DNA from: Planctomycetota bacterium | Lineage (GTDB): Bacteria > Planctomycetota > Phycisphaerae > Sedimentisphaerales > Anaerohalosphaeraceae | Reading direction: 5' to 3' | DNA length: 50,983 nt | Assembly: GCA_016873215.1 (NCBI GenBank) | Contig: VGXU01000013.1 | Coordinates: 1 to 50,983 of the forward strand | In this document: positions 1 through 45,640 of the stretch, piece by piece | Layout of the letters: every line of letters starts with the position of its first letter | Numbering within the stretch: the first letter of the stretch is position 1 | Position numbers and translations under genes: made by a program | Notes under the pieces: generated by a model | The model's database searches: none | Told to the model about the DNA's origin: nothing | Seen by the model: the letters and a program-made list of their open reading frames with translations, nothing else

Positions 1-334
1 CACGTTCGTACAGGCCCGCAGCGATAAACGCCCAGAACTGGTAAAACAGCCATGGACAGGAAATCAGTGCCGCCAGGACTATAACCGCCTTTATATAGAC
101 CATAAATGGCTCGGCAACGGTAATCGCCTGAATATGAGACGAAAGACCTGAGTCCCTGACCGCCGCCTCATAAGGCTTGAGCAGCAGTCGTACAAAATAC
201 TGACCAAAGAAAGCGGAAACCAAAATCCCAACCCCCAGGCCCGCTATCGCCAAAATCAGCCGGGCTCGTAACTCCTCCAGATGATCGCCCAGGCTCATCG
301 ACACCAAAAGCTGCTCACGTTTGGGTTCGGTCAT
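1..334 (-). CDS. tatC: Sec-independent protein translocase TatC (3' end cut by window edge)
   Basis: Translating the minus strand from the ATG at 334 gives about 111 residues before the window ends, so only the N-terminal part is present. TatC is the multi-spanning inner-membrane receptor that binds twin-arginine signal peptides. Seen here: the family start LGDHLEELRARL, a first membrane segment (about residues 26-46), a periplasmic stretch ending TVAEPFMVYIK, a second hydrophobic segment, and the conserved F-x-A-x-GLYER turn at the cut. The E-P-F and GLYER motifs are characteristic of the family. The start codon lies 6 bases after the rtcB stop, so the two are probably cotranscribed. Confidence 0.9.
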   Translation of the reverse strand, partial: MTEPKREQLLVSMSLGDHLEELRARLILAIAGLGVGILVSAFFGQYFVRLLLKPYEAAVRDSGLSSHIQAITVAEPFMVYIKAVIVLAALISCPWLFYQFWAFIAAGLYER

Positions 335-340
335 AACCGT

Positions 341-1771
341 CTATCCTTTCACGCAAATCAACGGAACGAGTTTGGCCACTCTGGTCGCAAGGCCGAGCTG
401 ATGAGACACTTCCACGACTTCGCTGACATCCTTGTATGCACCGGGGGCTTCTTCGGCCAGTCCCCGCATCGAGGAGGAACGAATAAAAACGCCCTGCTGT
501 TCAAGTTTACGGGCAACATCTTTGCCGTTCCATTTTTTCGTTGCGGCGGTTCGGCTCATTTGCCGGCCAGCGCCGTGACAGGATGAACTGAGTGAAAGTT
601 TTTCGCCACGCTCTGTTCCAACGAGAATATAGGAAGACGTGCCCATGGTGCCGCCAATTAATACCGGCTGACCGAAGGGGCGATACTCGACGGGCAAATC
701 CGCCCTGCCGGGGCCGAAGGCACGGGTAGCGCCTTTACGATGGACAAATAATTTTCTGCGTTTGCCGCCGATTTCGTGTTCCTCTTCCTGGCAGGTATTG
801 TGAGATACATCATAGAGCAGACGAACATTTGCCTGCGGCAAAATATCAGCCATTGCCTCGCGTACCAGATGGGTCAGAATCTGCCGATTGGCGAGGGCGC
901 AATTGATGCCGCTCCGCATCGCACCCAGATAGCGTTTCCCAACAGCGGAATGCAGCGGCGCGCAGGCCAGTTCCCGTTCGGGCAGTTCAAGGCCGGCCTC
1001 TTTGGCAGCAACCGTCATCTGCTTTAGGAAATCGGTCCCGATTTGATGGCCCAGCCCGCGTGAGCCGCAGTGAATACTGATTTCGATATCGTCCAGTTCA
1101 ATGCCGAAGGCCTTTGCGGCAGGTTCGTCATAAATTTCCACGACTTTCTGGACTTCGAGATAATGATTGCCGGAGCCGAGGGTGCCCATCTCTTCTTCCT
1201 GACGCTTCTTGGCCTCATAAGAGACGCAGGATGGATCTGCGCCGGTGATACGGCCGCCGGATTCGATAAATCGCATATCTTCTTTTGTACCAAATCCCTG
1301 CTCGACGGCCCAGACGGCGCCACCCTCTAAAACTTCATCCAGTCTCTGCTGATTGAGTTTGAGTTTTCCGGTACTGCCAACGCCGGCGGGAACATGGCGG
1401 AAGAGCTTGTCGGCGATTTGAGTTCTGAGATGTTCAATCCGTGAAGCTTTGAGGCCGGTGTGAAGTGTTCGCACACCACAGGCGATGTCGAATCCCACGC
1501 CGCCGGCGGAAATGACGCCATCCTGTGACGGGTCGAAAGCCGCGACGCCGCCGATACAGAAACCATATCCCCAGTGGGCGTCGGGCATCGCGTAAGAGGC
1601 CGCGACAATGCCCGGCAGCGAGGCAACATTGCGAACCTGCTCGGCAACCTTATCGTCCATCCCCTCAATCAGCGGCTCGGAAGCATAAAGAATGCCTTCG
1701 ACGTTCATCCGGCCGGCTTTTTCAATCAGCCATTTGTATTCGCTGCGCTGTTTGACAAGTTTTCGGTTCAT
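341..1771 (-). CDS. rtcB: RNA-splicing ligase RtcB
   Basis: GTP- and Mn2+-dependent ligase joining RNA 2',3'-cyclic phosphate or 3'-phosphate ends to 5'-OH ends in tRNA splicing or RNA repair. The 476 residues match the usual length. Metal and guanylation residues are visible: GGVGFDIACG (Asp95, Cys98), GSGNH (His203), IHCGSRG (His234), DVSHN (His324) and CHGAGR, whose His399 corresponds to the histidine that becomes GMP-linked. The C-terminus ends in the typical K-D-V-x-E-V-V ... PLICVKG. It is the second gene after archease, its activating cofactor, with a beta-propeller gene between them, and tatC follows after 6 bases. Confidence 0.96.
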   Translation of the reverse strand: MNRKLVKQRSEYKWLIEKAGRMNVEGILYASEPLIEGMDDKVAEQVRNVASLPGIVAASYAMPDAHWGYGFCIGGVAAFDPSQDGVISAGGVGFDIACGVRTLHTGLKASRIEHLRTQIADKLFRHVPAGVGSTGKLKLNQQRLDEVLEGGAVWAVEQGFGTKEDMRFIESGGRITGADPSCVSYEAKKRQEEEMGTLGSGNHYLEVQKVVEIYDEPAAKAFGIELDDIEISIHCGSRGLGHQIGTDFLKQMTVAAKEAGLELPERELACAPLHSAVGKRYLGAMRSGINCALANRQILTHLVREAMADILPQANVRLLYDVSHNTCQEEEHEIGGKRRKLFVHRKGATRAFGPGRADLPVEYRPFGQPVLIGGTMGTSSYILVGTERGEKLSLSSSCHGAGRQMSRTAATKKWNGKDVARKLEQQGVFIRSSSMRGLAEEAPGAYKDVSEVVEVSHQLGLATRVAKLVPLICVKG

Positions 1772-34090: not shown

Positions 34091-34101
34091 TTAAATCTGG
34101 A

Positions 34102-34119
34102 TTCCCGCCTTCGCGGGAA
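34102..34119. repeat. REP-like palindrome inside the operon
   Basis: Perfect hairpin TTCCCGC-CTTC-GCGGGAA preceded by TAAATCTGGA and followed by CGAC, in the 66-base nadA-metY gap. The same leader and layout recur at 40361-40380. Confidence 0.75.
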
Positions 34120-34129
34120 CGACAAATGA

Positions 34130-35047
34130 TTATTTTTCCGGCAGCACCTCTATCATTCGGTCCAGTGCTCGTCGGGCCCGGACTCGAATCGCCTGGGGAA
34201 CGGAAATCACATACCGCATATCCTGTAAAGACCACAGCACCTTTTCAAGTGTAATCTTTTTCATATTTGGGCATACGGCCTTATCGCCGGCCGAATAAAA
34301 CTTTTTGTCCGGGTGCCGTTTTTTCAGCGAATGTAAAATGCCTTCCTCAGTCGCAATGATAAATTCTTTTTTGTCTGACTTTCCCGCAAGAGTAATCATC
34401 TGACTGGTGCTCAGAAGCGCATCAGCCGCAGCCCGTACTTGGGGGCCGCATTCGGGATGCGCCAGTACAAGCGCCTCCGGATGCGCTTTGCGGGCCGTTT
34501 TGATATCTTCGGCCAAAATCCGCATATGCGTCGGGCAAAATCCCGGCCAGAGAATCATGTCCCGCCCGGTCTGTTCCTGTACGAATTTACCGAGGTGCTG
34601 GTCAGGCACAAAAATAATTTTTTTGTCCTTCGGCAGATTATTTACCAGTTTGACGGCGTTGGAACTGGTACAGCAGTAATCGCTGAGGGCCTTGACGTCC
34701 GCGGACGAATTGACATAGCAGACCACCAAAGCCTGCGGATGCTGAGCCTTGAGCGCTTCAAGCTGCGCGGCGGTAATCATATCCGCCATCGGGCAGCCGG
34801 CGTGTTTGTCCGGCAGCAGCACAGTTTTCCCCGGCGACAGAATCGAAGCTGTCTCGGCCATAAACAACACGCCGCAGAATATAATTACGTCCGCGTCGGT
34901 TTTAGATGCCTCTATACTAAGACCCAGCGAATCGCCGGTAAAATCGGCGATATCCTGAATCTCGCCCGGCTGATAGTTATGCGCCAGTATCACCGCTTTG
35001 CGCTGCTTTTTCAGTTCCTGAATTTTATCAACAAGGGATAGGTCCAC
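34130..35047 (-). CDS. nadA: Quinolinate synthase NadA
   Basis: 305 residues. A [4Fe-4S] enzyme condensing iminoaspartate with dihydroxyacetone phosphate to quinolinate in de novo NAD synthesis. The three cluster cysteines are in FCGVLFMAET, HPECGPQV and KAVCPNMKKITLE; LAHNYQPGEIQDIADFTGDS, VVCYVNSSADVKA and PDQHLGKF are also typical. The start is a GTG at 35047, 4 bases after the cysE stop with no room for a free ribosome site, so translation is probably coupled. nadB and nadC are not in the window. It may be placed here because it needs the Fe-S machinery made by the same operon. Confidence 0.95.
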   Translation of the reverse strand: MDLSLVDKIQELKKQRKAVILAHNYQPGEIQDIADFTGDSLGLSIEASKTDADVIIFCGVLFMAETASILSPGKTVLLPDKHAGCPMADMITAAQLEALKAQHPQALVVCYVNSSADVKALSDYCCTSSNAVKLVNNLPKDKKIIFVPDQHLGKFVQEQTGRDMILWPGFCPTHMRILAEDIKTARKAHPEALVLAHPECGPQVRAAADALLSTSQMITLAGKSDKKEFIIATEEGILHSLKKRHPDKKFYSAGDKAVCPNMKKITLEKVLWSLQDMRYVISVPQAIRVRARRALDRMIEVLPEK

Positions 35048-35051
35048 CTTT

Positions 35052-35999
35052 TTATGACTCCGTTTTCTTTCCCGGGTTTTTTTTTCGGCTCCGCGTTACA
35101 TACATCGATTCAGGCTCGGCGATGGCGGTTACGGCGCCGGCCGGCACGGATTCGCGTATCCAGACGTTGCCGCCGATGACGGCGCCTTTGCCGATGGTGA
35201 TATTGCCCAGAATGGTCGCCTCGGCATAGACCGTCACATCATCCTCCAGCGTTGGATGACGCTTCTTGCTGCGGATAAGCTGTCCCTTTTCATCCTTGGG
35301 AAAACTGACGGCGCCCAGCGTGACACCCTGATACATCTTGACATTATTGCCGATGACCGCGGTTTCGCCGATGACGACACCGGTGCCATGGTCGATAAAG
35401 AATCGTTTTCCGATTTTGGCACCGGGATTGATGTCGATGCCGGTTATCGAGTGGGCATATTCGCTCATCATCCGCGGAATCAGCGGTATATCCATCACAT
35501 ACAGTTCATGTGCAACACGGTGTACCGCGATGGCCGTGATGTGCGGATAGCTGAGAACAATTTCCTCAGTGGATTGCGCCGCCGGGTCACCGTCAAAAGC
35601 GGCCTGCACGTCGTCTTTGAGCATTTGCCGAATATGAGGTACCCGCGACAGAAATTTTTCAGTCGATTCCCGAGCCATCACCTTGCAGTCACAGTTCGGG
35701 CAGTTTTTGAGTTTGCATTTAAACCGCAGCGCCAGTTCGATCTGCTCGGCCAGCTCTCGTCGGACCGTCACAAGAATTTCCTGCACGACCGAACGGATAT
35801 TGTCGCTGGTAATGGGTCGTTTGCCTGTATAGCCCGGAAAGAGCAATTCCTTCAGCGAATCGAGTATCGACAATACCTTGTCGCGAACAGGAAGATTCTT
35901 GACATCAATAAAATTCGTACCGGAATCGTCCCGGTAAGATTTTAAGATTTCTTCCGTCAGTTTTTCCAGGTCGCTGCTGCTGAAACTTTTATGCGGCAT
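35052..35999 (-). CDS. cysE: Serine O-acetyltransferase (EpsC/SrpH-like CysE)
   Basis: 315 residues. It makes O-acetylserine from serine and acetyl-CoA. The C-terminal part is the left-handed hexapeptide helix: ITGIDINPGAKIGKRFFIDHGTGVVIGETAVIGNNV, YQGVTLGA, RHPTLEDDVTVYA. The catalytic His/Asp are in FIDHGTGVVIGET. The N-terminal 150 residues are longer than in CysE and contain a cysteine group CKLKNCPNCDCK (C-x5-C-x2-C-x-C), as in the EpsC/SrpH type. AGAGGA precedes the ATG. Its product feeds cysK, immediately upstream (12-base gap). Confidence 0.93.
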   Translation of the reverse strand: MPHKSFSSSDLEKLTEEILKSYRDDSGTNFIDVKNLPVRDKVLSILDSLKELLFPGYTGKRPITSDNIRSVVQEILVTVRRELAEQIELALRFKCKLKNCPNCDCKVMARESTEKFLSRVPHIRQMLKDDVQAAFDGDPAAQSTEEIVLSYPHITAIAVHRVAHELYVMDIPLIPRMMSEYAHSITGIDINPGAKIGKRFFIDHGTGVVIGETAVIGNNVKMYQGVTLGAVSFPKDEKGQLIRSKKRHPTLEDDVTVYAEATILGNITIGKGAVIGGNVWIRESVPAGAVTAIAEPESMYVTRSRKKNPGKKTES

Positions 36000-36011
36000 A
36001 GAATCCTCTTT

Positions 36012-36932
36012 TTATTGTGAATACAATTCGGTCGATAAATACCGTTCGCCGGTATCACACATAATAAACACTATCGTCTTGCCCTGATTTTGGGGCGATC
36101 TCGACAATTCGCAGGCAGCATGGCAGGCAGCCCCTGCGCTGATGCCGGCCAGTATACCTTCCTCCGCAGCAAGTCTGCGCGCCGCGACAAACGCCTGCTC
36201 ATTAGTCACAGTCATCACCCGGTCAATGACATCGCGGTTCAGCACCGCCGGCACAAAACCGGCGCCAATCCCCTGAATCTTGTGCGGGCCGGGCTTGCCG
36301 CCGCTTAAGACCGGCGAATCCGCCGGCTCCACCGCGATAATCTCAATTTTCGGATTGCGGGCCTTAAGAACTTCGCCGCAACCGGTAATCGTCCCGCCCG
36401 TGCCGACACCGGAAACAAGAATATCAATTTTCCCGTCGGTGTCACGCCAGATTTCCTCGGCGGTGGTTTTTCGATGCGCCTCCGGATTGGCCGCGTTGCA
36501 GAATTGCTGCAGAATAATGGAATTGGGAATTTCATGATTCAATTTCTGTGCTGCCTCGATAGCCCCTTTCATTCCACCGGTCGCGGGAGTCAGAACAATC
36601 TGTGCCCCGAGAATTTTAAGAAGTTTTCGGCGTTCGAGGCTCATTGACTCCGGCATCGTCAAAATCAGTTTATATCCCCGGGCGGCACAAATAAAAGCCA
36701 ACCCGATGCCGGTATTACCGCTGGTCGGTTCAATTAAGGTGGTTTCGTGCTTTAAAAGGCCTTTGCGTTCCGCATCCTCAATCATAAACAGAGCGATTCT
36801 GTCCTTGACCGAACTACATGGATTAAACGATTCCATCTTTGCAAGTACTGTTGCACTTTTTGACGCCATACGGTTCAAACAAACCAACGGTGTATTCCCT
36901 ATCGTTTTGGTAATATCCTCATAAATCACCAT
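36012..36932 (-). CDS. cysK: Cysteine synthase A (O-acetylserine sulfhydrylase)
   Basis: 306-residue fold-type II PLP enzyme. It joins O-acetylserine and sulfide to cysteine. Motifs: ITKTIGNTPLVCLNR, the PLP lysine in NPCSSVKDRIALFMI, PTSGNTGIGLAFI, TMPESMSLERRKLL, and the phosphate loop SGVGTGGTITG. AAGGA lies 7 bases before the ATG at 36932. It is the first enzyme gene behind the Rrf2 regulator (10-base gap), with cysE following. The CysE/CysK pair probably forms the cysteine synthase complex. Confidence 0.97.
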   Translation of the reverse strand: MVIYEDITKTIGNTPLVCLNRMASKSATVLAKMESFNPCSSVKDRIALFMIEDAERKGLLKHETTLIEPTSGNTGIGLAFICAARGYKLILTMPESMSLERRKLLKILGAQIVLTPATGGMKGAIEAAQKLNHEIPNSIILQQFCNAANPEAHRKTTAEEIWRDTDGKIDILVSGVGTGGTITGCGEVLKARNPKIEIIAVEPADSPVLSGGKPGPHKIQGIGAGFVPAVLNRDVIDRVMTVTNEQAFVAARRLAAEEGILAGISAGAACHAACELSRSPQNQGKTIVFIMCDTGERYLSTELYSQ

Positions 36933-36942
36933 ATTATAATCC

Positions 36943-37380
36943 TTATATCTGGTAGTGGTCGCCGCGCTGCAATTTCACCGATTTTTCAGCCAAGTCTTTT
37001 AATGTTGTGGTTTCCAGTACCGACATCAGGGCTTTGTACAAATCCTGCCATATCAGGCGGGTCGCACAGTCGCTGCAGCGGGGGCAAAATTCAGAGTGCT
37101 CAATACAATCCACAGGTACCAGAGACCCTTCGAGAGTCGTAAAGACCTCGCTGAGCTTGATTTCCGCAGGAGGACGAGCCAGCATATACCCACCTCGGGG
37201 GCCTCGCATACTGCGTACCAAGCCGGAGGATTTGAGCATCGCTATAAGCTGTTCGAGATACTTATTAGAGATATCTTCTCGATCAGCAATGGCCTTGATT
37301 TGAAGAGGCTTTTTGCCGTATTCGAGGGCCAGTTCGAGCATTGCCCTCATTCCGTATCGTGTTCTTGAAGACAGTTTCAT
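36943..37380 (-). CDS. Rrf2-family transcriptional regulator with Cys cluster
   Basis: 145 residues. Winged helix at the N-terminus (MKLSSRTRYGMRAMLELA, NKYLEQLIAMLKSSGLVRSMRGPRGGYMLARP) and a C-terminal helix. Four cysteines at 92, 99, 102 and 105 sit where IscR (92, 98, 104) and other Rrf2 members bind an Fe-S cluster, although the spacing C-x6-C-x2-C-x2-C is different. The gene heads the cysteine/Fe-S operon, and a palindrome at 37409-37426 lies 29 bases upstream. TAGGAGA precedes the ATG. It probably senses Fe-S or cysteine status (IscR- or CymR-like) and represses its own operon. Which ligand it senses cannot be told from sequence. Confidence 0.92.
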   Translation of the reverse strand: MKLSSRTRYGMRAMLELALEYGKKPLQIKAIADREDISNKYLEQLIAMLKSSGLVRSMRGPRGGYMLARPPAEIKLSEVFTTLEGSLVPVDCIEHSEFCPRCSDCATRLIWQDLYKALMSVLETTTLKDLAEKSVKLQRGDHYQI

Positions 37381-37555: not shown

Positions 37556-37584
37556 TTGACAAGCCTTAAGTTAAGACTGATAAT
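37556..37584 (+). promoter_or_regulatory. Promoter of exonuclease III, giving a leaderless start
   Basis: TTGACA, 17 bases, GATAAT. The -10 ends only 7 bases before the ATG at 37592, so transcription would start at or next to the start codon. Confidence 0.5.
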
Positions 37585-37591
37585 GAGACGT

Positions 37592-38365
37592 ATGAAGGTA
37601 GCCACGTTTAATGCCAATTCCATCCGCAGCCGGGTGGAAATTATCAATTCCTGGCTGGGCGAGAATCGTCCGCAAATCCTTTGCGTACAGGAAACCAAGG
37701 TGCAGGATTCGGAATTTCCTATCGATGCGTTTTGCGACCGGGGTTATCACGTCATTTTCCGAGGGCAGAAAAAATACAATGGTGTGGCCGTTTTCAGCGA
37801 CCAGCCCGCTGAATCCGTCGTCACTTCCCTGCCGGGCGATTCGGGTGACGAAGCGAGGTTCCTGCAAATCTTTTATAAAAAAATCGCCGTTATCAACACA
37901 TATATTCCACAAGGCGACTCCCCGGCCAGCGAAAAATTTCAGTATAAATTGAAGTGGTTTTCTCTGCTTAAAAAGTATTTCAGCAAAACCTTCAAATCCA
38001 CCGAACCGATATTGTGGATGGGCGATTTTAATGCGGCCCTGGAAGAAATAGACGTTTACGACCCGAAAGGGCTGTGGGGAAGCGTATGTTTTTGCCGGGA
38101 AGTTCAAGATGCATTAAAGGCGCTGATGCAATGGGGATTCGTGGATTTATTTCGGCAATTCCATCCGGAAGACGGGCATTACACATTCTGGGACTATCGT
38201 CTGTCCAACGGATTTCGCCGCAATCTCGGCTGGCGGCTGGATTATATTATGGCTACGCCGTCTCTGGCCCAAAAATGCATCGACTGCCGAATCGACAAAA
38301 CGCCGCGCGGCATGGACAAACCCAGCGACCACACTTTTGTCGTCGCCGAGTTCAAGGATCACTGA
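37592..38365 (+). CDS. xthA: Exodeoxyribonuclease III
   Basis: 257 residues of the ExoIII/AP-endonuclease family. It cuts abasic DNA and acts as a 3'-5' exonuclease. Motifs: MKVATFNANSIRSR (Asn7-Asn9 region), ILCVQETKVQD with the metal Glu, INTYIPQGD, ILWMGDFNAALEEIDVYDP and the C-terminal KPSDHTFVVAEF with the catalytic Asp-His. I chose the ATG at 37592; ORF codons upstream at 37556 and 37583 have no family counterpart. No Shine-Dalgarno site is present, which fits the leaderless promoter. Upstream lies the divergent Rrf2 gene. Confidence 0.95.
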   Translation: MKVATFNANSIRSRVEIINSWLGENRPQILCVQETKVQDSEFPIDAFCDRGYHVIFRGQKKYNGVAVFSDQPAESVVTSLPGDSGDEARFLQIFYKKIAVINTYIPQGDSPASEKFQYKLKWFSLLKKYFSKTFKSTEPILWMGDFNAALEEIDVYDPKGLWGSVCFCREVQDALKALMQWGFVDLFRQFHPEDGHYTFWDYRLSNGFRRNLGWRLDYIMATPSLAQKCIDCRIDKTPRGMDKPSDHTFVVAEFKDH

Positions 38366-38479: not shown

Positions 38480-40021
38480 ATGGGTTCATCATCTATCTCA
38501 TACGAGGATTTTGCCCGGCTGGTCAGCCAGCGGGCGCAGGTTCTTCTGCGGGCCGCCGGTTTTCTCATCCATCAGCATCAGAATAACTGCAAGAGGCTGA
38601 CTCGTCCGCTGCTGGGGGAATTTCTGGCTCAGGCAACCCAAATTGAGGAACTGCTGGATTCCCACGGCGCCCGCAATAATAATCAATGGGCCGGCTTTCG
38701 TTCGACGATTGCCGCGATAAAGCTGTTCTCCAATGTTGGATATGAACTTCTGCATATCCAGCTTTCCATTCCCGTGTATCGGCTTCTGCCGGTGGGACAG
38801 GATTTTGCCCTCAGCACACAACAAACCATTGATTTTGTGGAGGAGATTCTTTTTCACGCCGCCGAACGGCTCAGCCAGGAAGCCGCCGGTCTGCAACTAT
38901 CGTTTTCCTGTTCTCATTTGACCGTGGATATTTATACGGAATCGGTTCTGTCAGGCAGATTGCCGCACGATTTGGCGACGCGCAAAATGGAAACCGTTTC
39001 CAGTACTATCACGCTGCTGGCGACGGCCTTTTTAAATCTGGCGGCGGAATGCCGACAGGCCCTGCCCAAGGGACAAACCCTGCCCCAGGAATATCTGTGT
39101 GAAATCACGGGGCCTATCAGCGAGGAACAACTGCGTTCGCTGGAGCTTCGTTTCCACAATCTTCAGTCGCTTTACGACACATACGTCTCGACGACGGAGA
39201 CCGAAGTGCTCGACAAAGACCTGATTGTCCTGCGCGGGCATATCACCGTTGTTCTGCATCTGCTGCGAACCGCCCGGGATTTCGCCCATTATTATGAACG
39301 TCACATCGGCCCCGCCTCTCTGTACGTCCCCGGCTTTCAGCACCTCGTCGAGCCGGAAAAACTGCTGGATGTTCTGATTCATTATTCCATCTGCTTTGTC
39401 GGCGAATACCTGACCTGCGCGGAACTGCTCTGCCAGAATATGCTGCGGCGCTACACGGAAAACGTCCGCATTGAGGTGCGTGTCCCGCCCTATCGCGGTT
39501 TTCACGTTCGCCCTTCGACGCTGATTTCCAAACTGGTACTGCACTACGGCGGCGACGTGCGGATGGAACTGGAAGGCGAATCCTACGACGCCCATAGCCC
39601 GCTGGAACTGTTCAGGGCCAACGAAAAAATCAATGCACAGAAACGGCGGTCTCTGGCGACTGAAGTCATCCGCCTTAATCTCGCCACACCTCATCCGGAC
39701 AATAGCGACGTCAAAACGCTTATGCGAAATATCATTATGACGCTGGCTGAAAACGGAAAAGTGATTATTTACGAACAGCCGCTCAAACTCGACGAACTGA
39801 CACTTCAATCCGATGCGACGCTGATCGAGCAGCTCACCGATGAGATCGCCAAACTGCTGGTGATGGGCAAAATCGATATCACCACGGAAATGAAAGTGAC
39901 GTTCTTCGGCGATAAACGCGTCCTTGAAGACATCCGCCTCCTGGCCGAGATCGGCTACGGCGAAGACAGTTTCGGCAATAATATCCCGCTGCCCGAACGC
40001 CTCAAATACCTGCGGCAGTAA
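38480..40021 (+). CDS. Orphan protein with an embedded HPr-like phosphocarrier segment
   Basis: 513 residues. I do not recognise the whole protein. The first 320 residues are predicted mostly alpha-helical with no membrane segment, with a phase of long amphipathic helices (for example LLGEFLAQATQIEELLDS, FVEEILFHAAERL). Around 330-405 it reads like a PTS HPr domain: IEVRVPPYRGFHVRPSTLISKL ... G-D-V-R-M-E-L-E-G ... SPLELFRANE, where His342 followed by Val-Arg-Pro matches the H-x-R-P motif carrying HPr's phosphohistidine. A final part of about 110 residues ends LPERLKYLRQ. No PTS enzyme is nearby. The assignment as HPr-like is my inference from the motif and strand/helix order. Confidence 0.7.
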   Translation: MGSSSISYEDFARLVSQRAQVLLRAAGFLIHQHQNNCKRLTRPLLGEFLAQATQIEELLDSHGARNNNQWAGFRSTIAAIKLFSNVGYELLHIQLSIPVYRLLPVGQDFALSTQQTIDFVEEILFHAAERLSQEAAGLQLSFSCSHLTVDIYTESVLSGRLPHDLATRKMETVSSTITLLATAFLNLAAECRQALPKGQTLPQEYLCEITGPISEEQLRSLELRFHNLQSLYDTYVSTTETEVLDKDLIVLRGHITVVLHLLRTARDFAHYYERHIGPASLYVPGFQHLVEPEKLLDVLIHYSICFVGEYLTCAELLCQNMLRRYTENVRIEVRVPPYRGFHVRPSTLISKLVLHYGGDVRMELEGESYDAHSPLELFRANEKINAQKRRSLATEVIRLNLATPHPDNSDVKTLMRNIIMTLAENGKVIIYEQPLKLDELTLQSDATLIEQLTDEIAKLLVMGKIDITTEMKVTFFGDKRVLEDIRLLAEIGYGEDSFGNNIPLPERLKYLRQ

Positions 40022-40258: not shown

Positions 40259-40360
40259 GACGGGCCTCTTGTTCTGTCAATTTCTTCGACAACATGATAC
40301 ACATACTCCTTTTGTTTTCAAAGTTCATAGTTCTTAGTTCGTGGTTCGTAGAAAATCTGG

Positions 40361-40380
40361 ATTCCGGCCTTCGCCGGAAT
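40361..40380. repeat. REP-like perfect palindrome
   Basis: ATTCCGGC-CTTC-GCCGGAAT, preceded by AAAATCTGG and followed by GAC. Same leader and loop as 34102-34119. Confidence 0.75.
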
Positions 40381-40923
40381 GACAGAACCACGAGGCGCAA
40401 AATAAGCGCCTCCTATATGGGCTGGACTTGCGTGGCGGTGTCGAAAATTCGTGATTTTTGGAGGGCGGGAAAGCTGTAAGTCTTTGTTGGAAATAGAGTT
40501 AAAAATTTATGGAATTATTGGAAATAGCAGGATAGTGAAATCGCAATTGTGTTGAAATAATATAAACCACAGATTGACGCAGATTGTCACAGAGAGAAAA
40601 AAGGGAGAAGGCAAGAGACAAAAGGTATGTAGATATACAGGTATGCAGGGATGGAACAAAGACAAAGGGCAAAAGTTAAAAATCAAAAGGTAAAATTAAA
40701 ATTTTAAATTTAAAGCTATTTTGCGGATGAAATCCGCTTAAAAAAGTTCATTGTTCCCGCCGTCGCTAAAGTTATGACGGACAAGAAAGGCAAAACTAAA
40801 ATCCAAAATTAGGCGAAAAATGTACCTGACCCCTTTATTTTACTAAAAGCACTTGCCCGCTGCTGTTCGGATTTTTTTAACTGCAAGTACTATAAAACAC
40901 CGCAAGTTTCATTCGCCCGGTTT

Positions 40924-42501
40924 TTAAAAAGTCTGTGCATCTTTCCATGTCAGCGGCCAAATCAGTATGTCGTCCGATCCCGAATGATCAATCTCGCATG
41001 AGCCGTCACGACAGCTTGGTTTGGGCTTGCCTTTTTCATCAATCTTGTTACGCCCCACGCTGTAAAGCAGAAAATTACAATCCTTTACCTTATATATGAA
41101 CGGAAGTTGGGTAAACGGGTCAATCCATGCTTCGGCAGGCAGAGCAGTTTTTATTTCATCGAGAACGCCGGGCCAGCGGCCGCCTGCGTCCTTATAATTC
41201 CGCAGTGCAAAGAGAATGGCCGTGCCTCGGCGGCGGGCTATTATCTGCAAACGCGAGGCATGGATTTTTTCATGGACAGGAAAACTCATTTGAACCATTA
41301 ATTGGGCTGTGGTTCGATGTGGATCTCTGAGCCATGCGAGGTAAAAACTGGTATTCAGCGGCAGCGTGGTTTCCAGGTTGTTTGCATCAGCAAACAGAAG
41401 TGCTCTTTGAAATTCTTCATCAAAAATACTGCTGATGACTTTCGGATCACGAGGAGCGATAAACCAAAGACCAATGCTCGCTAATTTTTGCATTCTAATC
41501 TGCAGCGCACTATGGGGTTGTTGTATATTTGATGCGTTATTGGGAAAAATCCCATTGCCTTGCCGGAATCTCACTATGCCCTTGTCATCGGTCTCGTAGA
41601 ACATCATTGCGACCATGTTCTTGTTCAGCAGCTTTTCGATTTCGAATATCGGGGGATACAATAGGGGCCAATCATCAATTGGTGCAGGTATTATCCGGCG
41701 GATGGAATCCCGCTGGGTTCTGCTGAGATTTGTGTCTATTATCACAGACGCCAGTTGAGCGTAAGCCATATTTTCAATGTCGTCGCCCATCATTAGTTCC
41801 ATAAATGACGGCTGGGATTGGAGATGGCGGCCCATACGGACGAGACATTCATATTTTTTAAATGCTTCGTCAATCCTGCATTCGCCCATATCCCGATTGG
41901 CGGACGACACAAGCAGATACGCAATATGTCGCATACGATCGACCATTTTTGTGGGCATGTCCAGTGGATTTGTCCATAAAGGGAAAACACACTTGTCCAG
42001 ATTGCTTGCGGTCATTGCTTCGGACACTATCTCCCGGCGAGCGTCGATGAAGGCAGCAGTTTCAGGATGCTCGATTCCTTTCCACTGGACACAGGTGGAA
42101 GAGGCATTTCCCTCATTGAAGAATGATGGCGCATTTGAATCGTTTAGTTTCGCGGTGATACGCTGATAGATGAAAGCGGCATTTTGGTTGTCCGGCACGG
42201 CTCGATTTGCCCGGAAGTCTTTGAGTTCATAATCAAAATTATATGGCCGCCAGTTGTCCTTATCCGGCAGAAATAGCCAGATAACAACAATCCCAATGCA
42301 AATCAGAAAAGCTAATGCCAGGTATCCCGCCGTTTTTCTCTTACACGCGGCTATCCAGAGCGAAACAGGGATGATCAACCATAACCCATGTAAATTTCTG
42401 GAATATGTACCCAGAAAAAACAATATTGAAATCATCAGCAGGCAGAGAATATTAAATATCCCGCGAAAAACGGCTCTGACAATACGCATTTTACTTCCCA
42501 T
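40924..42501 (-). CDS. Lineage-type membrane protein with pseudopilin-like C-terminus
   Basis: 525 residues. Three hydrophobic segments (about 14-31, 38-52, 58-77) precede a large soluble domain. The last 80 residues (GGRWPGVLDEIKTALPAEAWIDPFTQLPFIYKVKDCNFLLYSVGRNKIDEKG ... SDDILIW) resemble the C-terminal end of type II secretion pseudopilins and of many planctomycete proteins. The middle region (YECLVRMGRHLQSQPSFMELMMGDDI) looks helical. Start is either the ATG at 42501 (AGGAA, 4 bases) or at 42489 (GGGA, 6 bases). Function is unknown. It follows the GH106 gene on the same strand after 169 bases. Confidence 0.7.
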   Translation of the reverse strand: MGSKMRIVRAVFRGIFNILCLLMISILFFLGTYSRNLHGLWLIIPVSLWIAACKRKTAGYLALAFLICIGIVVIWLFLPDKDNWRPYNFDYELKDFRANRAVPDNQNAAFIYQRITAKLNDSNAPSFFNEGNASSTCVQWKGIEHPETAAFIDARREIVSEAMTASNLDKCVFPLWTNPLDMPTKMVDRMRHIAYLLVSSANRDMGECRIDEAFKKYECLVRMGRHLQSQPSFMELMMGDDIENMAYAQLASVIIDTNLSRTQRDSIRRIIPAPIDDWPLLYPPIFEIEKLLNKNMVAMMFYETDDKGIVRFRQGNGIFPNNASNIQQPHSALQIRMQKLASIGLWFIAPRDPKVISSIFDEEFQRALLFADANNLETTLPLNTSFYLAWLRDPHRTTAQLMVQMSFPVHEKIHASRLQIIARRRGTAILFALRNYKDAGGRWPGVLDEIKTALPAEAWIDPFTQLPFIYKVKDCNFLLYSVGRNKIDEKGKPKPSCRDGSCEIDHSGSDDILIWPLTWKDAQTF

Positions 42502-42670
42502 ATTTCCTCAGCTATTACGTTCGCCTTATTAATCCGATGTTTCCTATATACAACCCTGTATAGCCTTGCATCGTCGAACAACCGGCCGCTGGTTCAGTTC
42601 AAAACACAATAGACATAACCTCTCGAAGTTTTTCCACAGGCTATTCGTTTTAGTCTTGTTATGTCGCGTA

Positions 42671-45592
42671 TCAATCGCTCACGAGAACAACAGGTCCAAG
42701 CAAACCGGATTTGAGCAAACCCCAGTCTTTTCGGATTGTAATATTCGTTTGTGTATAACGTTTCTCCTTCGGCATGTCACGATCTCCAACCAGCCGATTG
42801 CGCCAGGAATTAACCACGACGATTTCCATTTGGTTTGGACCAGCATTCAAAATTTTTGTAACCTCCACGCGAAACGGTTTTGTCCAGACAATACCCAGGT
42901 CCCTGCCGTTGAGTGTAACAGCCGCAATTCCTGTATCTTCGACGTTATTTAACTCCAGCCAGTAACGTCTTTCTTTTGCGACCTCCGAACACGTAAACGT
43001 CTTGCGATAGACCGCCTTGCCGGAATAAAATTTAACCCCTTTATCGCCGTGCTGTGTCCAGTCGGTCAACGTATCGAATTGAATGGACGCAGGGCCGCCC
43101 CAGGCCGGATTGAACGCGACCTGCCATGATCCCTGGATTTCCATGACAGTTTTCAATGCCGGGAAATTGGAGTCTGCTGTTCCCTGCTGAGTCGCTGGAA
43201 TCGGCTCCTGAAAAATGACAAAGCATGAACCATAAGGTTCAAACTGCAAAGACACTCTCGTGCATCCCGCGGATTGGCTGAAGGCTTTGGCCGGCCGGAT
43301 TTGTCCCGTCACCGGGTCCCACAATTCCGGCTGTCGGCCGGAAACACGGAATGCACCGTCGATGGCCTGCGGCTTCTCGGTCTGGTTGCAGACGAAATAT
43401 ACCTCCGCCTCTCCCACGCGGTAATGAATGTAGTCATACAAGGAACTATTATCTGTGCCGATTACCTCAAAATCTTTGGCAAGCCCTTGACTCTGAAGAA
43501 ACTGACGGGCAGTTATCCCCCAAACCAGACACCCCTTATCAATATTTTTTTGACCGCTTTCAGCCGGCTGAACTCCCCACATCTGATCAGCCAGGCCATG
43601 AAACTGCTGCTGTGCTGTTTTGCCGCCAACCAGGCTGACCAGCCGTTGAGGCTTCGGTCCCAGTACCGTGGCCCCCTGCCTGAGTAATTTGTCAACTTTT
43701 TCCAGGGCTGGCAGCGACAACACCTTGTGATCCGGCAAAACGAGCAAACGATACTGAATCCCGCCGGGAACCACGATTTTCCCATCCACACATTTCAGTT
43801 GCAGTAAAACGTCTTCATTCGTGACATCGTAATCGTAGCCGGGCATTACCCTTGCCGGATCGGATTCCTTCAGAGCGGCAATATTAGGGACATGGTCGCC
43901 ATAGTAATACAGCACATCAGCGATGAATTGACCCTGCTGCACCACGGATTGAATCCGATTCATGTAATTGATGAACGCGTCGGAATAGTCCCACCATGTG
44001 ACCTGCGGATTGACATGCGTGCCTGCAAAATATTCCTGCCCCGGGAGACCCATTTCTTTCGGTGAACAGGTAAAGGTATGAAAGAAAATCTTATTTAATC
44101 CGGCGCAGTATTCATGGTCCATGCTCGGTTTTTGAGATTGCCAGAGAACATCGTTCCAATGGGGACCGATGGAAGTAAAAGATTCGGCGCCGACGTACTG
44201 CTTCCCATAAATATGGGCCGCCGAGGAAGCTTGTTTCACAAAAAACCGCTTTTCCGGCGTTGGCCGATGCGGAGAAGGCACCCAGAATTCACTCATCACG
44301 ATATCACTGTGTGAATAGTTTTTAATACCGTCCAGTGGGCCGGCGTGGGGACCGGCCGATTCCGGCTGGATTCCAAGCTTATATCGGGCCGCATGTTCGG
44401 CAAAGACCTTGTAGTGATTGTTCGAGACACAATCAGCCAGCGTCTTTCTAAAGTCGGCCAAAAAGGCGTTGCTCACTTCACGGTTTTCCACGATTTTGCC
44501 GGCAATGACGGGCAAATACGGAATCGGATCATAGCCGCAATAGTCTTTGAAATCGGCTGCAAAACCCGGACTCCAGTTCATCCCACCGCATTCCCAACTG
44601 TCCGTTCCCAACTGTTTTAAGACCGTCCCGGCCATCGGACCGGCTTTTTTCAACAGCGGCTCAATCATTTCATCCCAATAGCGGTCAAAGGCATCCTCAC
44701 TGAGATAGTCGATCACAAGTCCCTTCCAGTCACTGCTGGAAGTGGAAACCTGGGCGTTTGTAGTGGTGTATCCAAACCGCAGAACGGTCCACGTCCCGGC
44801 CGGAACATCCCACGTCAGCGTGCCATCAACACCCATTTTGGCTGTTATGTTCTGTATATCCTCCATCAACACATCTTCCTCGCCCGGCACAGAGGGGCGG
44901 TCCTCCAGCAAAAATCGGGTATCCGGAGCGGAGCCGCCTAACTCCTTAAAGCCTGATTTAAGAGCGAGATCACGGATCGGTTCTCTGGATTGGTTATGCC
45001 CCGGTTGGCGTCTCTGTGGATAAGCCAGAACACAAATTTCCTGATAATAATTTTTTTTGTTGCCGGGTACAGGCAGTTTTTGGCTGTAAGAAGCCGGCCC
45101 TTTGGCCTGAATCTCAGACCAGACCAATTGCTTGGCTGAGAATTCAGGTGTCACACAGGGTCCGCCCAGATTCCAACCGCTCTGAATGGACAACCCCAAC
45201 TTCAGGCCGAGCCGCTGAGCTTCTTTCAGGGCATGGATGTAAAGCTCCGTCCATTCCGGACTGCCAAACGTCGGCCCTTCAGGGACCTGTGCATTTCCTC
45301 TATGTTCCGCTCCGCCTGCATCAAATATATACGCCCCGCTAAAGCCCTTTTTCCGCATCGCCTCCAGGTCTTTTGTGATGGCTTCCCGGGTCACATTTCC
45401 ATTGAGCCACCACCACCAGCAGCTAACCCCGGCTTCTCGCGGCGGGATTTGAAACCGCTGCTCCAACGCTGCAGACGGCAGACTCAGTTTGGGATCAGAG
45501 ATGGTTTTGTTTGTACATCCGGCATTGAGATGCAGGATAAAAAATGACAATACAATAATAGCTGTAGATAATCGTCGAAATCCCTTTTTCAC
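42671..45592 (-). CDS. GH106 alpha-L-rhamnosidase-like lipoprotein
   Basis: About 973 residues from a GTG at 45592, where AAAGGA has 6-base spacing; an ATG at 45619 extends it nine codons. The start MKKGFRRLSTAIIVLSFFI, then LNAGC, is a lipoprotein signal with the cysteine at residue 26. The body has the GH106 hallmarks: CWWWWLNGNVTREAITKDLEAM, GGAEHRGNAQVPEGPTFGSPEW, SGWNLGGPCVTPE, KLGIQPESAGPHAG, YVGAESFTS, WWDYSDAF, and a C-terminal beta-sandwich ending TWKPFRV-like TKPFRVEVTKIL. It should remove terminal L-rhamnose from plant or algal polysaccharides at the outer membrane. No other polysaccharide-degrading gene is adjacent. Confidence 0.9.
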   Translation of the reverse strand: MKKGFRRLSTAIIVLSFFILHLNAGCTNKTISDPKLSLPSAALEQRFQIPPREAGVSCWWWWLNGNVTREAITKDLEAMRKKGFSGAYIFDAGGAEHRGNAQVPEGPTFGSPEWTELYIHALKEAQRLGLKLGLSIQSGWNLGGPCVTPEFSAKQLVWSEIQAKGPASYSQKLPVPGNKKNYYQEICVLAYPQRRQPGHNQSREPIRDLALKSGFKELGGSAPDTRFLLEDRPSVPGEEDVLMEDIQNITAKMGVDGTLTWDVPAGTWTVLRFGYTTTNAQVSTSSSDWKGLVIDYLSEDAFDRYWDEMIEPLLKKAGPMAGTVLKQLGTDSWECGGMNWSPGFAADFKDYCGYDPIPYLPVIAGKIVENREVSNAFLADFRKTLADCVSNNHYKVFAEHAARYKLGIQPESAGPHAGPLDGIKNYSHSDIVMSEFWVPSPHRPTPEKRFFVKQASSAAHIYGKQYVGAESFTSIGPHWNDVLWQSQKPSMDHEYCAGLNKIFFHTFTCSPKEMGLPGQEYFAGTHVNPQVTWWDYSDAFINYMNRIQSVVQQGQFIADVLYYYGDHVPNIAALKESDPARVMPGYDYDVTNEDVLLQLKCVDGKIVVPGGIQYRLLVLPDHKVLSLPALEKVDKLLRQGATVLGPKPQRLVSLVGGKTAQQQFHGLADQMWGVQPAESGQKNIDKGCLVWGITARQFLQSQGLAKDFEVIGTDNSSLYDYIHYRVGEAEVYFVCNQTEKPQAIDGAFRVSGRQPELWDPVTGQIRPAKAFSQSAGCTRVSLQFEPYGSCFVIFQEPIPATQQGTADSNFPALKTVMEIQGSWQVAFNPAWGGPASIQFDTLTDWTQHGDKGVKFYSGKAVYRKTFTCSEVAKERRYWLELNNVEDTGIAAVTLNGRDLGIVWTKPFRVEVTKILNAGPNQMEIVVVNSWRNRLVGDRDMPKEKRYTQTNITIRKDWGLLKSGLLGPVVLVSD

Positions 45593-45640
45593 TGTTTTTC
45601 CTTTCGTCTCAAAGTGCATGGTTTTTCAAGACATTGTGTT

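Follow-up and report, generated by a model that had tools for sequence, protein, structure and literature searches.

Why should a long helical protein from a planctomycete end in a segment that carries the phospho-histidine motif of HPr? The question is raised by a 513-residue open reading frame in the window, the whole stretch of 50,983 nucleotides analysed here, which is one contig (C13) of a 2.69-Mb genome with a completeness of 99.9%. A preliminary description, made from the letters alone, had presented this frame as an orphan. The reading frame is real, and it is conserved over its full span, from residue 1 to residue 513, in relatives, the nearest named of which belongs to a Sedimentisphaerales (Planctomycetota) MAG and shares 79% identity. 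The label of orphan has not survived: the family turned up at 47 loci among the genome contigs searched and in 59 of the 294 Planctomycetota genomes sampled, as a single copy in each genome and always with the same N-terminal domain attached. The features of the gene, and of the gene directly upstream, are collected in Table 1. A homologue with 80% identity (L003 3420–4930) has a disrupted reading frame in its MAG, through either assembly error or decay; because of its stops, the alignment of homologues does not include it.

Table 1. Window coordinates of the HPr-tailed gene, its parts and the upstream gene.
Feature	Residues	Position	Strand	Remarks
Exo_endo_phos nuclease (ExoIII-like)		37556..38365	+	ends 114 bp upstream of the HPr-tailed gene, co-directional
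Whole HPr-tailed gene		38480..40021	+	helical domain, then split HPr domain; 513 aa, coordinates run through the stop
N-terminal all-helical domain	1–327	38480..39460	+	predicted model; no family match
HPr domain, first part	328–381	39461..39622	+	strand 1, phospho-histidine loop, helix A, strands 2 and 3, start of helix B
Active-site motif YRGFHVRP	338–345	39491..39514	+	His342 at 39503–39505, Arg344 at 39509–39511
Insert after HPr helix B	382–470	39623..39889	+	about 90 residues; EKINAQKRR motif in the extended helix B, followed by helix-strand-helix-strand
HPr domain, second part	471–497	39890..39970	+	strand 4, helix C
Conserved C-terminal tail	498–513	39971..40018	+	GNNIPLPxxLxYLR

In the AlphaFold2 model (mean pLDDT 86.2, pTM 0.82, with the HPr core at about 90 or more), the last third of the protein is an HPr fold, a four-strand sheet with three helices. 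The predicted elements run from a strand at 328–334 through a helix at 344–356, strands at 360–364 and 367–370 and a helix at 374–398, to two helices and two short strands, followed by a strand at 472–478 and a helix at 479–491. Alignment of the model with the solved HPr structure 3lfg, using VIA-align, gave Z 11.4 and 1.7 Å over 85 residues (model range 328..497), so the predicted fold is that of HPr and not unlike it. The preliminary description had proposed an HPr-like segment with a phospho-histidine motif at residues 330–405; fold and motif stand, but these limits were wrong, as the domain occupies about 328–381 and 471–497, with an insert separating the two parts behind helix B, and is the last domain of the protein.

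A tree of the homologues resolves two supported clades. The long form, to which the window protein belongs, carries the insert throughout its clade (SH-aLRT 100), while the short form (430–440 aa) joins the same N-terminal domain to a compact HPr, the insert being missing from 20/20 short forms. Mean identity between the two forms is 36% for the HPr domain and 25% for the N-terminal one. Among the sampled Planctomycetota genomes, 49 of 294 encode the short form and 10 of 294 the long form (the split of the 59 carriers was counted by hand from the genome table); one clade of Competibacteraceae has the long form too. In a quick tree these Competibacteraceae sequences branch among the planctomycetal long forms, a nesting that suggests a single horizontal transfer. 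Two contigs labelled Phycisphaerales (isolate GAO1; L033) and Synechococcaceae (SM1_2_3; L034) fall inside the Competibacteraceae clade and are probably mislabelled MAGs. When the family profile was run against 321 genomes of the class that includes Competibacteraceae, 182 were matched, nearly all over the HPr part only and in frames with the look of ordinary HPr genes. Neither the family and its short form nor the insert had been noticed in the preliminary description. As no paper describing it was found in the open-licence literature, this HPr-tailed helical family, mainly of Planctomycetota, is apparently undescribed.

The likeness to HPr is beyond chance, and is seen more clearly across the family than in the window protein, which taken alone matches TIGR01003 with E = 1.3e-4 (21.9 bits, under the curated NCBIfam cut-off of 47.9) and Pfam PTS-HPr (PF00381) with E = 0.028 (14.9 bits, under the curated cut-off of 23). 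Of 38 diverse family members, the TIGR01003 model picks up 37 at E ≤ 0.01, the best at 4e-10, and the Pfam model 36 at E ≤ 1. The Pfam cut-off of 23 bits is exceeded by all four short forms scanned, and in a genome search was also passed by some Competibacteraceae long forms. Compared profile to profile with canonical HPr, the short form reached E 2.9e-12, and the long form, once its insert had been taken out, E 3.6e-8.

Within the HPr domain, GFHVRP forms residues 340–345, and His342, Arg344 and Pro345, equivalent to HPr His15, Arg17 and Pro18, are invariant in 76/76 distinct homologues (56 long, 20 short); the comparison of homologues that had been proposed for His342 and Arg344 thus found both without exception. 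Of the docking positions, those that correspond to 48 and 51 of HPr are hydrophobic in the long form (L/M375 and F378), and in the short form positions 47, 48 and 51 are all mostly hydrophobic, with 48 and 51 mostly L/M/I. Position 47 of helix B is mostly Pro in the long form, where the active-site loop is also two residues longer. Further invariant residues, all additions of the long form, are found in 56/56 long forms, namely R339 and, in the region of the insert, N381, E382, N385, K388 and R389. A serine occupies the HPr Ser46 position in 42 of 56 long forms and in 20/20 short forms; Ser46 and HPr kinase constitute a regulatory branch that is not universal within the HPr family.

The N-terminal domain (residues 1–327) is predicted to be entirely helical, with a pLDDT of 87.8. 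Its conserved residues comprise H92, H226, Q229, Y232, D233, T234, E242, R252, H254, H260, H270, E273, R274 and H275, with E56, D60 and N67 in addition, and its invariant polar residues are common to the long and short forms. A Pfam scan of 38 family members returned PTS-HPr as the only recurring family, with no known family on the N-terminal domain and no match to MtlR (PF05068), and a PDB sequence search with the N-terminal profile gave no match. Comparison of the domain's two halves showed no internal repeat. Two candidate identities found no support in profile comparison. For CHAD (PF05235), a polyphosphate-binding domain, hhalign returned a probability of 0.3 and E 0.24, against 99.9 for a control of CHAD halves that still worked with at least three of the 25 rows of the CHAD profile read on the wrong strand; the top Foldseek match was a CHAD structure (6qva, E 0.1), at Z 8.8 over 134 residues and 4.7 Å, which is within the chance range for helical bundles. 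For the anti-sigma factor Rsd/AlgQ (PF04353), comparison with 20 Rsd sequences gave an hhalign probability no higher than 0.5, with a control of 100.

Whether a phosphate donor is available can be asked of the genome as a whole. The observation that no PTS gene lies nearby holds within the window, but EI (Enzyme I), HPr and PtsN occur together on another contig, in a row HPF-PtsN-HPr-EI (L080 8989–11958) that was assigned by sequence, with EI and HPr assigned by Pfam too. At this locus, a ribosome hibernation factor gene adjoins the regulatory PTS. The genome check proposed in the preliminary description therefore located Enzyme I but not HPr kinase, none being found in the window's genome by a search with the kinase C-domain. 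Planctomycetes have been reported to possess a regulatory PTS without PTS transporters (PMC2405797). EI was present in 276/294 genomes of the phylum, 55/59 family carriers (the window's genome included) against 221/235 non-carriers; being nearly universal it discriminates little, and its co-occurrence with the family is uninformative. The same is true of HPr kinase, which was above cut-off in one genome of 294. A separate canonical HPr was found in the window's genome and in 11/11 other genomes checked. When EI, HPr, PtsN and HPF were searched by tblastn over 105 neighbourhood loci of sampled relatives, no EI, HPr or PtsN adjoined the family gene; the only matches were the family's own HPr segments, one HPF (L037), and L146, a PTS region that had itself been fetched.

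The neighbourhoods of the family are clade-specific, with no universal partner gene, the gene calls in high-GC genomes being heuristic. In the sub-clade of the window, the ExoIII-like gene adjoins the HPr-tailed gene in every member whose contig extends far enough. Downstream, the stretch 40924–45619, between the HPr-tailed gene and a DUF4340 gene, contains the gene for a GH106 alpha-L-rhamnosidase and a frame of 525 aa without known family, and as the DUF4340 gene almost directly follows the gene in many relatives, this stretch looks like a lineage-specific insertion. Upstream, at 34130–37380, nadA (quinolinate synthase) lies within a cluster resembling one for cysteine synthesis. Its other members are a frame similar to PLP cysteine synthases, a hexapeptide transferase that weakly matches serine acetyltransferase, and an Rrf2 regulator. 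A hairpin-like repeat, TGGATTCCGGCCTTCGCCGGAATGAC, which is similar to dispersed REP-type elements, occurs in two copies where chance would give none, at 40358–40383 (0 mismatches) and 34098–34123 (3 mismatches).

Other Phycisphaerae show a different arrangement, LysR-HAD-LolA-[gene]-flavodoxin-FabA, and in four Competibacteraceae loci (L032, L040, L041, L042) the long form is directly followed by a phosphofructokinase, which in several other loci lies a few kb away. The GGDDTN and PKTVDND motifs of the Competibacteraceae enzyme are typical of the PPi-dependent type. For the short form 20 neighbourhoods were fetched, five of which the gene caller missed, and a divergent sigma-70 factor stands beside it in 12 of the 15 that could be scored (L148, L150, L152–L154, L156–L158, L161–L163, L166). 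In these loci hemN lies beyond the sigma-70 factor, and in many of them parB lies downstream. Synteny alone could explain the sigma-70 adjacency, since hemN, pyrF and parB are likewise conserved around short forms.

We consider it about an even bet (a probability of roughly 0.5) that the HPr-tailed protein is a PTS-linked regulator, in which EI phosphorylates His342 and the HPr domain governs an output domain at the N-terminus. The Enzyme I of the cell, whose gene lies on another contig with those of HPr and PtsN, would phosphorylate His342 in step with the balance of PEP to pyruvate; the phosphorylation state would then alter the docking of the HPr face, either with a partner or with the helical domain of the same chain, and so switch the output of the helical domain. 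We infer the phosphorylation, its donor, the switch, the output and the partner alike. Phosphorylation by EI is favoured because the histidine, the arginine and the hydrophobic docking positions 48 and 51 are retained, the existence of a separate canonical HPr makes the fusion look like an extra output rather than a carrier, and the constancy of the helical partner suggests its role as an output domain. Counted against an EI-driven role are the absence of PTS genes adjoining the sampled family members, the usual proline at position 47 and the longer loop of the long form, and the neighbours that vary between sub-clades; the near-universal presence of EI in the phylum also lends it little weight, and the long-form insert may obstruct EI.

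The preliminary description had left two options, a new phospho-signal reader or a fold reused without phosphorylation, and the HPr fold, the invariant His/Arg pair and the presence of EI favour the reader, in which phosphorylation would be the signal. That the fold now serves as a plain binding module, with His342 and Arg344 kept for contact with a ligand or partner, is unlikely: the missing PTS linkage, the additional invariant polar residues of the long form and the sub-cut-off HPr scores of the window protein would suit it, but neither form departs from the exact H-x-R-P set, and the HPr of the short form is still canonical, its Ser46 position being invariant too. It is distinctly improbable that the long form has a chemistry of its own, in which the insert and the EKINAQKRR helix would build a new pocket over the histidine for another phosphate donor or for catalysis; the insert, present throughout the long clade and missing from the short, and the five invariant residues from N381 to R389 point that way, although the short form does without these residues while having the same N-terminal domain. 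Very improbable is an extra phosphocarrier between EI and PtsN, with the helical domain as a mere tether, for which the HPr fold and motif speak, since a canonical HPr already stands between PtsN and EI, and the invariant polar residues of the N-terminal domain are too many for a tether. A more specific proposal than a PTS-linked regulator in general is unlikely as well, namely that the N-terminal domain represents a novel type of output domain (e.g. a regulator of the divergent sigma-70 factor), which phosphorylation of the attached HPr would switch in cis, the whole being re-engineered in the long form by the insert beside the phospho-histidine. If true, it would be a self-contained, PTS-controlled regulator of transcription or metabolism.

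As a PTS-linked regulator, the HPr-tailed protein may allow the carbon-energy status of the cell to switch another process on or off. Although HPr has been studied extensively, its companions in the fused forms of the literature covered here are other PTS parts. Its fusion to an unrelated, highly conserved helical domain, widespread in planctomycetes, would represent an uncharted output of the regulatory PTS, with His342 as a direct handle on what that system controls in Planctomycetota.

With the stand-alone carriers HPr (PtsH) and NPr (PF00381, TIGR01003), the family has in common the predicted fold, the H-x-R-P site and largely hydrophobic residues at docking positions 48 and 51 of helix B; it differs in the C-terminal fusion of HPr to a 327-residue helical domain, in its low sequence score and, in the long form, in an active-site loop longer by two residues and in the insert, about 90 residues long, that follows helix B. 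FruB/FPr, DhaM and the multiphosphoryl transfer proteins likewise hold an HPr domain inside a longer polypeptide, with partners that are mostly PTS domains, EIIA or EI (PMC2405797), whereas the partner here is not a known PTS domain, there is no adjacent PTS gene, and the Pfam scan of 38 members revealed no second PTS domain in the chain. In E. coli it is free HPr, not phospho-HPr, that binds MtlR and Rsd via its docking face (PMC6763467), again bringing an HPr module together with a helical protein. Those pairs are of two separate proteins, unlike the one chain described here, whose N-terminal domain lacks profile similarity to Rsd; if the likeness extends to function, the HPr-tailed protein would be a single-chain version of the HPr-MtlR and HPr-Rsd pairs.
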